The notes under the pieces are model-generated. The model was not told the origin of the DNA and did not search any database. It was given only the letters and a program-made list of their open reading frames with translations. A stretch of 56,623 nt of DNA from Candidatus Dormiibacterota bacterium (GTDB taxonomy: Bacteria > Vulcanimicrobiota > Vulcanimicrobiia > Vulcanimicrobiales > Vulcanimicrobiaceae), in assembly GCA_035532035.1 (NCBI GenBank), contig DATKRS010000004.1, forward strand, positions 307,501 through 364,123, given 5' to 3'. Both the position numbers and the translations under genes were made by a program. Shown one piece after another: positions 1-17,054 of this stretch (position 1 is its first letter; each line of letters begins with the position of its first letter).

Positions 1-1986
<1,986 letters not shown>

Positions 1987-2792
1987 CAATTTTGGGGTGT
2001 GGCGGCAGAAATGTCGTCAAAGCATCGGCTTATAACGGTGAAACCCAAAGCTGTCACAGGTCATCTGTACAGTGGGCAATACCGTGGGAAGTCTTTCGGA
2101 GGAGCAGCACTCCATCGTGATCGGCACCTTGCTAGGTGACGGCGCGATGCGCTGCAAGGCAAACGCTCTTCTCGAGGTTAATCACTCCGTCCATCAACGG
2201 ACATATGTCGACTGGAAGTATCGCCATCTGGCGGATTTCGTATCGACAGCGCCAAGGCAGCGGCAGAGCAATGGGAGTAGGTTCGCGTATCGGTTTGTGA
2301 CGCGGAGCCTCCCAGAGTTCACTCCCTACTACCGGTTGTTTTACCCCGACCGGCAGAAGGTGGCTCCAGTTGTGGAGCTAACGCCGTTGGCCTTGGCTGT
2401 CTGGTTTATGGACGACGGTTCCAGATCTCGAAGAGCCGTGTATCTGAATACCCAGCAGTTCGATGTGACGTGTCAGGAATTGCTGCTGTACCTCCTAGAG
2501 GATCAGTGGGGAATCCAGGGCACTCTAAATCGGGACAAGTGCTATCACCGAATTAGATTGTCGGTGATTGGAACGACCCGTTTTGTGGAGCTGATTGCTC
2601 CTCATGTCTTACCTGACTTCAGATACAAGCTTCCGTAATGACCCCGTAACGACTGAGGCCTTGTGCCGAGGTAGCGGTCACTTGGCGCCAAAGCGCCAAA
2701 ATCTACGGCCGCTACAACACGCCGACCCCTCGCCCAGTTTGCCGGGCAGGGTGGAGATATAGTCTGCGCCACTGGAAACGGTGGATTACGCG
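1987..2792 (+). mobile_element. Group I self-splicing intron in the 23S peptidyl-transferase loop (about L2500)
   Basis: An 806-nt insertion splits GGCACCT from CGATGTCGG, which are contiguous in 23S rRNAs. Group I hallmarks can be read directly. P1 pairs exon 1981-1986 (GCACCU) with the guide at 1995-2000 (GGGUGU), with the expected U1986-G1995 wobble at the splice site. P4 is ACGGT (2035-2039) with ACCGT (2081-2085), and P5 is CCC (2044-2046) with GGG (2074-2076). P7 is GACT (2651-2654) with AGTC (2761-2764), inside typical R and S elements (ACGACTGAG and GAGATATAGTC). P9 is CCACTG-GAAA-CGGTGG (2769-2784). The intron ends in G2792, as required. Its base composition is clearly less GC-rich than the protein genes, which suggests lateral acquisition. 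The exact subgroup was not determined. Confidence 0.93.
2072..2638 (+). CDS. LAGLIDADG homing endonuclease encoded in the 23S intron
   Basis: This 188-residue protein has two LAGLIDADG motifs: IGTLLGDGA near residue 17-25 and [10 protein letters not shown] near residue 110-119. Each carries the acidic residue that binds catalytic metal, so one chain should form a monomeric or pseudo-symmetric nuclease. Enzymes of this family cut the intronless 23S allele and drive copying of the intron into it. The frame is intact and spans the intron interior, starting inside the ribozyme core (3' strand of P5) and ending 13 nt before P7. The first start is GTG 2072. GTG 2084 is also possible, and no convincing ribosome-binding site decides. 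Some intron LAGLIDADG proteins also act as splicing maturases; that is possible here but not shown. Confidence 0.88.
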
Positions 2793-3190
<398 letters not shown>

Positions 3191-3300
3191 GACTTGCTCG
3201 TGCTCGCTCTGGAACGCTCGAGGGTTGCGGAAGGCCGCGCCCGACGTTCCGTTGTCAGGCGACCCTCCTGGGTCGCGGGACGGCGGACGAGCGCCAAGGT

Positions 3301-3418
3301 TTCCGGTGGCCATGGCGGCGGGGAAACACCCGTTCCCATTCCGAACACGGCAGTTAAGCCCGCCAGCGCCGATGGTACTTGGGGGGAGGCCCCCTGGGAG
3401 AGTAGGACGCCGCCGGGA
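3301..3418 (+). rRNA. rrf: 5S ribosomal RNA
   Basis: About 118 nt with the 5S core CCGAACACGGCAGTTAAGCC. The terminal helix I pairs CCGGTGGC (3303-3310) with GCCGCCGG (3409-3416). It lies about 110 nt after the 23S 3' end, as expected for the last gene of an rRNA operon. Confidence 0.95.
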
Positions 3419-3546: not shown

Positions 3547-5763
3547 GTGGACCAGAACCAGAGAGACCCCGATCAGCCCCCGCGGGAGAAGGTTGGCGAT
3601 TCTCGGGGCGGTGGAGGGGTTCGCTCCGGGTCGGGGCGGCCTACCGGATCTCGGAGTGGTCGCCCTGGTGCTGGGTCCAACGGATCGCGGAGCGGTGGGC
3701 CTCGGGGAGGGTCAACGGGGAGCGGCGCCGGGCGCCGGAGTGCCGGAGCGGGGGCGGGCGACAGCAGCCGCGGCGGCTCGTGGCGGGAGGGATCGAGGGC
3801 TACGACGGGCGGGAGCCGCGGAGCGCCCGGCGAGTGGAAGAGGGACGACGGCCGCGGCGGCGGTGCCCCTCGGGGGCCAGCTCGACGTCCTGGGGACCCC
3901 GGCAGGCGGTCCGAGCCGAGCGAGAGGCGTTGGGAGCGGGACGGTGAGCGGCGGCCGGCTCAGGGAAGAGGCGAGCAGGGCGAGGGGGGTCGGTCGTTCG
4001 GGCGCCCGGGTTCGCCAGGTCGGCTGGACAGCCCTGCTCGGAGGGCCGGCAGAGCGGCAGAGCGCCCGTCGCCGGCATCACGCCAGGGTGGTCCGAGGAG
4101 CTCGGACCGCCCGAGGCGTGACGAGCGCGGTGGCGACCGGGCGTGGTCGTCGGACCGCCCGAGGACTTCGGACCGCCCCAGGACTTCGGACAGGCCCAGG
4201 ACTTCGGACAGGCCCAGGACGTCGGACCGCCCGAGGACGTCGGACAGGCCCAGGACTTCGGACAGGCCCAGGACTTCGGACAGGACGTCGGACCGCCCGA
4301 GGCGTGACGACCGCGTTGGCCGGGGAGATCGTTCGGAGGGACCGGCCGGCCCGCGTCGGGGGCAGGGGGCACCCTCGGCCACCCGCCGGCCGCCGGCCGG
4401 CAAATGGCCGAGCCGGAGCGGGTCGGGTACAGATGATCCTCGCGCCGGTGCTCGCACCGGCGGGCGGGCACCGGCGCGTGGGCAACGCTCATCGGGCGCG
4501 TCCGGGGGCCGGTGGGAGGCGGGGGGCGACCGCGGGCCGTCGCGGGCCGACAGGGAGCACGGCGGTGGCTTCGGGGCCACCCGGGCTCCGGGCGGCCCTC
4601 GACGATCGGTGGGGGACCGCCCTCGCTTCGTGGAGCGGCCCTTGCCCGAGGCGGCCCAGCACTGGGGCGGTGTAGCCCGTCGGGGAGCACGACTGGTCCA
4701 AGCCGACGACCGGGACCAGAGCCGCGAGCGACCGGGTCCGTCGGCGCCGCCGCCGGCCCCCGACCGTTGGGTCAGGGCAGACGGTCACACCTCCGAATGG
4801 GCCGACCCGGTCCGTCGGCAGAAGGTGTCGGCCCGCCCCTCGCCGGGTGGCCGGGCGTCGCGGACGCAGCCGCTCCCCGCCGACGTGGCAGCCCAGGTTC
4901 GCAACGCGGCCGACGTGGCCACGGCACGCCATCGTGAGGTGTTGGTCGGCAAGATGGAGGACGCCGTCGCCGCCTACGACCGGGGGCGCTATCCCGAAGC
5001 GGCCCGGCTGGCCAAGCAGGTCGCGGACGAGGTGCCGACAGTGGCGGCGGTCCGCGAGCTGGCCGGGCTCTCGGCGTACCGGTCGGGCAGGTGGCGAGAG
5101 GCGATCCGTCACCTGACCGCCTTCGGGGCGATGAGCGACTCGGTGACCCATGTCCCGGCGCTGATGGACTGCCACCGAGCCGTTGGGCAACCCAGGCGCG
5201 TGGCGGACCTTTGGGCCGCCCTGCGCCACCAGTCGCCGGAGCCCGAGGTGCTGGCCGAGGCCCGGATCGTCGCCGCCGGAGCGCAGGCCGACCGGGGTGA
5301 CCTTCTCGGAGCGATTGCCGTGCTGGCCACCGCCGGCGCCGCCAAATCACTTCGCAACCCTGCGGATCGGCACGTTCGGCAGTGGTACGCGCTCGGTGAT
5401 CTGTACGAGCGCGCCGGCGATCTTCCCCGGGCCCGTGAGCTGTTCACCAGGGTGTTGCGGGTCGAGCCCGACGCCTACGACGTGGCCGATCGGCTCGAGG
5501 GCCTCGGACCCGACAGGCCCCGACGGAAGCGACGCGGAGGCCCTCCCGTGCCCAGATCGCTGAAGGACGCCGCTCCCGGGTCGACCGGTCCGACGGCGTC
5601 CCATCCGGCGTCCTCGCCCCCCGTCCCGGAGCCGCCCCCCGTCCCGGAGCCGCCCCACGCCACGGGTACCTCGCGTAACCCGGACGAGGCGTCCGGCCTG
5701 GCGTCACCGCCCTGTGAGGCGGTATCGGCGCCCAAGATCGCCGACCCGCTTGCAGCGTCCTAG
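3547..5763 (+). CDS. Low-complexity Arg/Gly/Ser-rich protein with C-terminal TPR domain
   Basis: A protein of 738 residues in two parts. Residues 1 to about 455 are disordered and extremely rich in R, G, S, D and P, with a run of RTSDRP hexapeptides near residues 206-250. Residues of about 460-655 form helical tetratricopeptide-type repeats (for example [20 protein letters not shown] and [20 protein letters not shown]), which usually mediate protein contacts. A Pro-rich tail follows with a duplicated PPVPEP segment. No catalytic motif is visible. The Arg/Gly-rich tail could bind RNA or acidic partners, but this is inference. The GTG start is chosen because of the -10 box 5 nt upstream. The TAG stop overlaps the next promoter. 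Open frames on the other strand and frames here are composition shadows. Confidence 0.75.
4162..4287 (+). repeat. 18-bp in-frame tandem repeat (RTSDRP)
   Basis: Seven copies of an 18-bp unit of the type AGGACTTCGGACAGGCCC, with T/G and CCGC/AGGC variants, followed by a shortened copy. Each encodes RTSDRP. Near-identity at the DNA level points to recent slippage or unequal exchange. Confidence 0.95.
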
Positions 5764-15659: not shown

Positions 15660-17054
15660 ATGGTGAGCAGCCGCACACATCTGTCGATCGGTGACGTGCT
15701 CACGCTGTTGCGTGAGGAGTTCCCCGACGTCACCATCTCGAAGATCCGCTTCCTCGAGAGCCAGGGCCTGGTCAACCCCGAGCGGTCCCCTTCGGGGTAC
15801 CGGAAGTTCTTCGAGCGCGATGTCGAGCGCCTCCGCTGGGTTCTTCGCCAGCAACGAGAGCACTTCCTTCCGCTGAAGGTCATCCGGGACCGGCTGATCG
15901 AGAGCGGCGGCGGCGTGCCGGCGGACGAGGACAGTGCAGAAGCCCTTCCGGCAGCGGAGCCGGCGGTGCCCGAGGAGGGCCGGAGCATCACGGCGGGGGT
16001 CTTGGCCAACGGGGCGACCGAGCACCTGGCGACGGGCCTCAGGGTGCCCGAGCCGGCGCTGCTCCTCTCGCAGGGAGTCGGGCACCACCCCGGCGGGGCA
16101 GGAGCGGGCGAGCGATCGGCGACCGGGCGACCGGGCAGCCGGGCGGCAGGGGGGCAGGAACCGATCTCGGCCAGGGGGGAGGACGGTCGCCAGGAGGCGG
16201 CGTTGATCCGGGAGGCGGTCCGCGACGCGCTCCCGGGGCTTTCGCCGCCGAGCTCGCCGCCGGGGCCGGGGGGTGAACCGCGCGCACCGCAAACGCCGGT
16301 GGCGAAGCGGGCTCCCGTTTCGGCCGCCGCCCCGGTGGAGGTCGTCGGTGGGGAGACCTCCGGTTCCGGGAAACGATCGCAAGCGGTCGCCGCCTCCCGC
16401 CCGGGAGCGGGTAGGGCGGTCGATGCGGGGCCGCGGGGTGGTCAGCCGGTGGCCCACGGCACCGGCCCGGACGCCGGGGGAACCGCCACGGGTGCGGGCG
16501 GCCCGGCGGCGGGGGAGCCCGACCTGCCTTCGGCTCCCGATCCCCGTACCGCACCATCCTCCCGGCAGGGTCGTCCCGCCGCCGGTCAGGGATGGTCGGT
16601 CGAGGCCGGGTCGTCCTCGGAGGATCCCTCAGGGGAGGAGCCCGGTGTCCCCTTCGACCTGTCGTCGGGAGTGAGCGGGGCGAGCCTCACGATGGAGGAG
16701 CTCTGCGCCGCCACCGATCTGACCGCCTCCGACATCGCCTCCTTGGAGGCCTTCGGCCTGATCGAGACGATGACCGTCGCCGGCACCACCTATTACGACG
16801 AGTCCGCCCTGGCGGTGGCGAACCTCGTCTCAGGGTTCGGTCGGTACGGGATCGAGCCCCGGCACCTCCGCCTCTACCGGAACGCCGTCGAGCGGGAGTC
16901 GGGCCTGATCGAGCAGGTCGTGGCCCCGCTGCTCCGCCAGCGGAACCCGGAGTCGCGTCAGCGGGCGGCGGAAGCGGCCGCCGACCTGGGCAAGCTCGGG
17001 CAGAGCCTGAGGTCGGCCCTGCTCCGCAAGGAGCTCCGGCGGCTGATCGGTTGA
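15660..17054 (+). CDS. MerR-family regulator (FtsR-like) with long disordered linker
   Basis: A DNA-binding protein of 464 residues. A MerR-type winged helix (LSIGDVLTLLREEF...RFLESQGLVNPERSPSGYRKF) covers residues 8-75. A helical C-terminal domain covers about 340-464 (LTMEELCAATDLTASDIASLE onward). Between them lie about 250 low-complexity residues rich in G, P, A and R. Mycobacterial and corynebacterial homologues in this locus (Rv1828/FtsR) are about 250 residues, so the linker is a large expansion. FtsR activates ftsZ in corynebacteria; a division role here is inference. ATG 15660 has GAGGGAG 7 nt upstream, so this gene is leadered. Confidence 0.87.
   Translation: MVSSRTHLSIGDVLTLLREEFPDVTISKIRFLESQGLVNPERSPSGYRKFFERDVERLRWVLRQQREHFLPLKVIRDRLIESGGGVPADEDSAEALPAAEPAVPEEGRSITAGVLANGATEHLATGLRVPEPALLLSQGVGHHPGGAGAGERSATGRPGSRAAGGQEPISARGEDGRQEAALIREAVRDALPGLSPPSSPPGPGGEPRAPQTPVAKRAPVSAAAPVEVVGGETSGSGKRSQAVAASRPGAGRAVDAGPRGGQPVAHGTGPDAGGTATGAGGPAAGEPDLPSAPDPRTAPSSRQGRPAAGQGWSVEAGSSSEDPSGEEPGVPFDLSSGVSGASLTMEELCAATDLTASDIASLEAFGLIETMTVAGTTYYDESALAVANLVSGFGRYGIEPRHLRLYRNAVERESGLIEQVVAPLLRQRNPESRQRAAEAAADLGKLGQSLRSALLRKELRRLIG

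Follow-up and report, generated by a model that had tools for sequence, protein, structure and literature searches.

A 23S rRNA gene whose peptidyl-transferase loop is split by several hundred extra nucleotides raises two questions, namely what the insertion is and to which organism the interrupted gene belongs. We addressed both for a stretch of 56,623 nucleotides, here called the window, which lies on one contig (C4) of the bacterial assembly G000. Our answer, to which we give a probability of about 0.92, is that a mobile group IA intron, self-splicing and homing, occupies site L2500 of an Acidimicrobiia-like 23S rRNA gene, and that misassembly joined this gene to the 23S rRNA gene of a member of the Eremiobacterota.

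The insertion site and its exon borders

Positions 1-3194 of the window match the bacterial large-subunit rRNA model (LSU_rRNA_bacteria, cmscan), and a 5S rRNA gene follows at 3302-3418 (RF00001, 114.3 bits); these and all features described below lie on the forward (+) strand. An insert of 806 nt at 1987-2792 exactly separates the equivalents of E. coli U2500 and C2501, the K-12 rrlB gene having T at 2500 and C at 2501. Exon 1 ends with ...GGCACCT at 1986 and exon 2 begins with CGATGTCGG at 2793. As a C stands at both 1987 and 2793, the border is ambiguous by one base, an ambiguity resolved by the rule of a U.G pair at the splice site and by the final G of the intron. The two exon motifs abut without any insert in 12 other loci (L026, L037, L039-L044, L011, L012, L014 and L018), and other 23S genes carry introns at the same site. 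The exactness of the insertion relative to the empty sites, together with the fold and covariation described below, bears out that note's central claim of a group I intron between U2500 and C2501 of a bacterial 23S rRNA.

A chimeric 23S rRNA gene and the host of the intron

The affinities of the 23S rRNA gene change along its length, a feature which the earlier note overlooked, together with the position of the intron in the actinobacterial part. When blocks of forty bases readable in both groups were compared, the closest of 6 Eremiobacterota loci surpassed the closest of 9 actinobacterial ones in 34 of 36 blocks of 1-1756 (1 tie, 1 opposite), the part equivalent to E. coli ~798 to ~2270. One locus, L042, reached 95-100% identity in 21 of the 39 readable blocks of this left part, its lowest value being 61%. 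Actinobacterial loci led in 4 of the 5 blocks (1 tie) of the 5' exon beside the intron (1787-1986), the final bases of which, CACCT, form P1, and in 9/9 blocks of the 3' exon (2793-3194).

Closer resolution came from G355, a genome drawn from the class of G060, which its record title assigns to the Acidimicrobiaceae. Informative sites, defined by three Eremiobacterota rows against one G355 row, switch at 1786/1787: up to 1786, 55 of 60 are of the Eremiobacterota type, 2 of the G355 type and 3 of neither, and from 1787 on, 24 of 28 are of the G355 type, 3 of the Eremiobacterota type and 1 of neither. The 23S locus of G355 (L194) is 92-100% identical to the window in 60-nt blocks from 1801 on, and contains an intron that agrees with the window's in both position and length; its strong collinear match with the window starts at 1749 and runs through 23S and 5S into the downstream genes. 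The contig thus appears, on these comparisons, to be a chimera, of Eremiobacterota origin to the left of ~1757-1786, a stretch common to both lineages, and Acidimicrobiia-like after it, intron included. The lineage switch and the collinearity of G355 together assign the intron to an Acidimicrobiia-like actinobacterium, its class being taken from a record title.

A chimeric 23S rRNA gene could also be biological, an Eremiobacterium having gained by recombination the 3' half of an actinobacterial 23S gene along with the genes downstream, in which case the Eremiobacterium would itself be the host of the intron. Homologous recombination would be possible at the crossover, which falls within conserved sequence, and the contamination figure of the bin is only 0.4; in addition, the L2500 3' junction pattern is present in 13 other Eremiobacterota genomes, and 3 of the 28 informative sites after the switch still resemble Eremiobacterota. 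We nevertheless consider such an event very improbable in view of the wider gene neighborhood. Contig C35 and the part of C4 left of the window match an Eremiobacterota genus at 71-85% over 0.8-2.8 kb (up to 83% over 2.5 kb for C35, and 79% over 2.7 kb for C4), whereas window 20-26 kb finds in the same genus only matches of at most 496 nt at 66-68%, plus 27 nt at 96%. Window 20-32 kb instead matches the Acidimicrobiaceae genome G060 at 69-74% over 0.7-2.3 kb, in a search where 11/11 genomes had some match and the two from Eremiobacterota were weaker. The gene at 15660-17054 belongs to the equivalog family of the actinobacterial regulator FtsR, and G355 is collinear from 1749 through 23S and 5S into the downstream genes. 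Furthermore, the same kind of join recurs in a second chimeric 23S contig, L125/L196, where an Eremiobacterota intron and exon are joined to an Acidimicrobiaceae 23S. The join at ~1757-1786 is therefore most likely an artificial one, produced by misassembly.

As the intron side of a misassembled contig comes from another organism, the intronless 23S gene on C35 (L026) is the Eremiobacterium's own gene and not an allele, and the coexistence of two alleles, with and without the intron, in one genome was ruled out. Separately, window 1-1756 is only ~86-90% identical to this L026 gene of the same assembly, a divergence that points either to another binning error or to a pair of strongly differing operons. 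L125 (Acidimicrobiaceae palsa_552) was likewise rejected as an independent same-site intron, the first 231 nt of its contig being 99% identical to the Eremiobacterota genome G010. These cases carry a warning: conserved 23S stretches can join genomes in assemblies, with the result that an intron is credited to the wrong host.

Ribozyme fold and covariation

We evaluated the fold on an alignment (A1) of the window intron, with its open reading frame (ORF) excised, and 24 hand-picked ORF-less same-site introns (257-314 nt) of non-CPR bacteria, CPR and archaeal introns being left out. P1 (CACCU/GGGUG) joins the exon bases 1982-1986 to the internal guide sequence at 1995-1999, with T at 1986 facing a guide-sequence G as the splice-site U-1.G pair, and the GGGGTG of the guide region is invariant in 25/25 introns. 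Two-sided changes affect all 6 pairs of the P2 hairpin (2002-2017), 3 of 5 in P3 (2025-2029 with 2721-2725), 2 of 5 in P4 (2035-2039 with 2081-2085), which is paired in all 25 introns, and 2 of 3 in P5 (2044-2046 with 2074-2076). They likewise affect 6/6 pairs of the P7.2 stem between P7 and P3' (2671-2715; 2671-2676 with 2710-2715), where 94% of cells are paired, and 6/7 of P8 (2727-2751; 95.1% of cells paired). In the terminal element at 2766-2791, P9.0 (2766-2768 with 2789-2791) encloses the P9 hairpin with its GAAA loop (2769-2784), and two-sided changes occur in 2/3 and 5/6 of their pairs, respectively. P6 (2086-2093 with 2640-2645), whose loop holds the ORF, is 100% paired, nearly invariant and devoid of two-sided changes, and the guanosine-binding helix P7 (2651-2654 with 2761-2764) is invariant in 25/25; this near-invariance speaks neither for nor against pairing in these two helices. 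The terminal omega-G, at 2792 in the window, is again invariant in all 25 introns.

Every element that the earlier note had picked out by reading the sequence, namely P1 with its U-G pair, P4, P5, P7, the GAAA-capped P9 and the terminal G, was found in the window copy; P2, P3, P6, P7.2, P8 and P9.0 form in addition, with P3 and P7 crossing each other. By eye, P10 is weak in the window copy (C-G, G.U, A-U), and a small P7.1 is visible between P7 and P3', outside the 51 counted pairs. Extra hairpins P7.1/P7.2 in this position are a criterion for subgroup IA, and on the strength of P7.2 and the small P7.1 we place the intron in the IA group.

Over the 51 pairs and 25 introns, 98.2% of cells are paired, and 32 pairs show two-sided changes, amounting to 196 cells. 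Sliding the 3' partners by 1-3 columns reduced pairing to 33-45%, a control against which the counted structure is somewhat favored, having been drawn from the same sequences. Shuffled alignments have a mean covariation score of 0.197, compared with the observed 0.448. Among 500 shuffles none reached the observed value in four of five measures, and 6 did so in the remaining one, which counts further pair types; related rows in the alignment inflate these shuffle tests.

The covariance-model search proposed in the earlier note gave a divided outcome. The Rfam group I model (Intron_gpI, RF00028) found no match on the window copy, either at the gathering score or at E<=10 over 1950-2830, none anywhere in assembly G000, and none on the ORF-bearing L2500 intron of L122. 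Among ORF-less same-site relatives the model did recognize L030 (26.8 bits, E 5.9e-5) and the actinobacterial L108, L048, L097 and L099 (36.7-44.8 bits, E 5.2e-6 to 1.9e-8), all of these scores being below the gathering score of 50. The window copy probably escapes the model because the ORF splits P6; the score is a detection aid and not a defining feature of group I introns.

A homing endonuclease in the P6 loop

The earlier note also overlooked the gene inside the intron. At 2072-2638, with a GTG start, lies an ORF of 188 amino acids encoding a LAGLIDADG_2 homing endonuclease (Pfam PF03161, E 1.9e-33, 116.3 bits against a cut-off of 25). Its best match among solved structures, I-SceI, extends across both motifs (E 6.5e-9); in this alignment LLGDG and FMDDG fall opposite the motifs of I-SceI, and the acidic residues are present. 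The ribozyme core itself (3' strand of P5, J5/4, P4 and P6) supplies the codons of the N-terminus, GNTVGSL, and several relatives have MDNTVGSL in the corresponding frame. Compared with the G355 gene, 148 of 186 residues are identical and dN/dS is 0.117, and to judge from this comparison the intact frame is under purifying selection.

Both intron ends were located in 72 of 99 entries, and the 22 frames among them that reached 160 aa, the window's and 21 others, supplied the proteins for a tree. In it the window protein pairs with that of the Actinomycetota L2500 intron L122 (66% identity, support 97/93), a pairing retained at 88/80 in a tree of 31 rows. A motif filter kept the L209 and L212 genes out of this larger tree, along with those at other sites in L090 and L111. 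We also observed that the L2500 endonucleases of the Hadarchaeota loci L112 and L127 cluster with the main CPR group at 90/89, which is short of the starred level and hints at a possible transfer between domains.

The intact gene bears on whether the insert could be dead, a defective intron in an rRNA copy that is not expressed. This is less probable still than recombination in the host: every counted core pair forms in the window copy, the exons retain conserved sequence, and the endonuclease gene has an uninterrupted frame that purifying selection maintains. Intervening sequences are known in bacterial 23S rRNA, and an insert of that kind would be cut by RNase III without ligation, leaving a fragmented 23S, an explanation which we regard as the least credible, given that the insert lies at a highly conserved site in the peptidyl-transferase loop and holds a whole group I core with a homing endonuclease gene. 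Short non-intron insertions at sites resembling those of intervening sequences are described for CPR in the accessible part of PMC11270868.

From the families to which the intron and its endonuclease belong, we infer that a mobile, self-splicing group IA element operates at this locus as follows. The transcript would fold with the P1 U.G pair at the 5' site, the crossed P3/P7 core, and P9.0 with omega-G at the 3' site; a guanosine bound in P7 would then initiate two transesterifications that excise the intron and join U2500 to C2501. The two-motif, I-SceI-like endonuclease encoded in the P6 loop most likely cuts the uninterrupted L2500 site of intronless 23S genes, and repair of the cut would copy the intron in. 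The target being nearly invariant, such an element could cross phyla, and loss of the endonuclease gene would yield the short ORF-less forms of the relatives. The efficient splicing expected in the earlier note is likewise an inference.

Known relatives and the spread of L2500 introns

The window intron resembles introns that occur at L2500 in many other microbes, and it has more distant counterparts at other sites. With the yeast mitochondrial omega intron and I-SceI it shares a two-motif LAGLIDADG endonuclease in a large-subunit group I intron, and differs from it in site and host, the omega intron being mitochondrial and located at L2449. The 23S group I introns of Thermotoga, Coxiella and Simkania also contain LAGLIDADG genes and differ in site, lying near 1917-1951, although G355, a relative of this host, does have insertions near 1931 and 1952. 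The Thermotoga intron with its LAGLIDADG gene is treated in the accessible part of PMC3984707, and that of PMC12641178 provides further background.

Closer parallels come from archaea and CPR bacteria. The available sections of PMC6125680 list IA3.2 and IA3.3 as group IA3 introns that occupy LSU/2500 in archaea, among them the IA3.2 intron of Hadarchaeum (LQMQ01000054.1, our L112), and assign to P6 the LAGLIDADG insertion of IA3.1, whose own site is LSU/2593. The window intron occupies the same site as L112 and begins with a comparable P1/P2, and its LAGLIDADG endonuclease is a homologue of the L112 one, with 41.6% identity. The archaeal introns differ in their archaeal 23S host and in their much diverged endonuclease (branch of 1.71 in the 31-row tree). 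According to the portions of PMC11270868 at hand, CPR 23S group I introns (23IS6-23IS14) cluster around the peptidyl-transferase center, occur at one site in ORF-plus, ORF-less and degenerate-ORF forms, and have LAGLIDADG_1 genes at 1917, 1931, 1952, 2593, 2604 and 2657; the terms '2500' and '2501' are absent from its main text. The window intron thus shares with these its group I nature, a LAGLIDADG gene and the region of the peptidyl-transferase center, and differs in host; CPR contigs with an L2500 junction are nonetheless present in our own scan. For L2500 introns in Actinobacteria, Eremiobacterota or Chloroflexota, titles and the beginnings of abstracts gave no report, in a search with thin coverage of the subscription literature.

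The scan used an exact pattern, a P7-like ATAGTC followed by 12-42 bases and then by G|CGATGTCGG..., on the 84,980 genomes of the genome_contigs collection, and returned 97 stretches whose 3' junction at L2500 resembles that of a group I intron. These are matches to the junction pattern, assigned by the fallible titles of binned genomes (as L125 illustrates), and they divide into CPR (31), archaea (12), Chloroflexi (11), Actinomycetota (9, one being the chimeric L125), Eremiobacterota (7), Omnitrophota (5), Pseudomonadota (5), Acidobacteria (2), and Deltaproteobacteria, Aminicenantes, Planctomycetales and Chlamydiae (1 each), with 11 lacking a taxon. The view in the earlier note that sites in the 2500 loop are known mostly from organelles does not hold for prokaryotes as a whole, in light of these 97 stretches and of the archaeal LSU/2500 introns and the CPR introns around the peptidyl-transferase center in the accessible parts of PMC6125680 and PMC11270868. 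These findings indicate that group I introns in the catalytic loop of the ribosome are no organelle curiosity, and that they occur in numerous bacterial phyla as well as in some archaea.

Intron lengths range from 257 to 948 in the 72/99 entries with both ends located (window and L035 included). Near relatives include L028 (818 nt) with a full endonuclease gene, L027 (332 nt) with what appears by eye to be a truncated remnant, and others of 282-298 nt without a gene, a series of full, remnant and absent forms as the homing cycle predicts. A single invariant site thereby allows the spread of introns between distant microbes to be followed along with the gain, decay and loss of their endonucleases.

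Within Eremiobacterota the junction pattern occurs in 14 of 149 genomes, the chimeric contig of G000 included. In the class of the Acidimicrobiaceae genome G060 it occurs in only 2 of 296, one of them chimeric, and direct corroboration within that class comes from a single genome, G355. A further pattern, GTTTGGCACCTNH, was tried as a marker and rejected: it matched 76 of the 296 genomes, but the reversed pattern was common too.

Several loci bear multiple insertions. The five in the 23S gene of G355 (L194) measure 309-806 nt and lie at E. coli ~1931, ~1952, ~2262, 2500 and 2593. L090, L116 and L111, from other phyla by title, have four or five each, of 302-933 nt, at sites among ~1912-1932, 1952, 2262, 2475, 2500, 2593 and 2604. 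Another locus, L047, from a tick Coxiella endosymbiont, has an 832-nt L2500 insert with only pieces of the endonuclease gene in more than one frame, the longest open frame of the insert being 68 codons; a search of the accessible literature on introns of Coxiella endosymbionts returned nothing on point.

Endonuclease genes behind the 5S rRNA in Eremiobacterota

Homologues of the endonuclease were detected at E<=1e-20 in 11 of the 149 Eremiobacterota genomes. Besides the chimeric contig of G000, they lie within an L2500 intron in G024 and within an 814-nt 23S insert near 2474 in G390. Five genomes have the gene outside the 23S, behind the 5S: G010 (L204/L036), G046 (L203/L038), G422 (L209), G424 (L207) and G031 (L212), with gaps between 5S and gene ranging from ~75 nt to at most ~460 nt. 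G420 (L206) is a possible sixth, the start of its frame resembling, by eye, a translated 5S, and Rfam reported no 5S at this locus. The remaining homologues are those of G414 and G025.

The 23S is assembled in three of the five genomes and, in the same operon as the gene, contains inserts too short for it: G010 has one of 291 nt at L2500, and G424 and G031 each have one near 2474, of 276 and 274 nt, respectively. Partial motif matches (G031) suggest a possible group I fold for the near-2474 inserts, on which Rfam gave no match at gathering. In the 31-row tree, which lacks the genes of G422 and G031, the G010 gene groups at 95/92 with the L2500 genes of the window and L122, and that of G424 is joined, at 98/94, by the gene from the G390 intron.

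We tentatively suggest, with the odds somewhat against it, that in Eremiobacterota some 23S introns, located at L2500 or near 2474, may have become separated from their endonuclease genes, the two working in trans within one rRNA operon, as in collaborative homing, on which the accessible literature includes phage work. The 23S would then hold an insert lacking an ORF, and an endonuclease gene of the cognate type would stand by itself behind the 5S. If so, and taken with the spread of the 97 stretches, L2500 would serve for homing across domains and be supplied by endonuclease genes in several arrangements.

Other features of the window

The variable regions of the 23S gene contain extra stretches of ~106 and ~186 nt, at window ~375-485 and ~720-890, the second of which is also present in the Eremiobacterota loci L026 and L031 (199 nt). 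Behind the rRNA operon, a long GC-rich ORF at 3547-5763 includes an in-frame tandem repeat (SDRPRT) at ~4140-4290.
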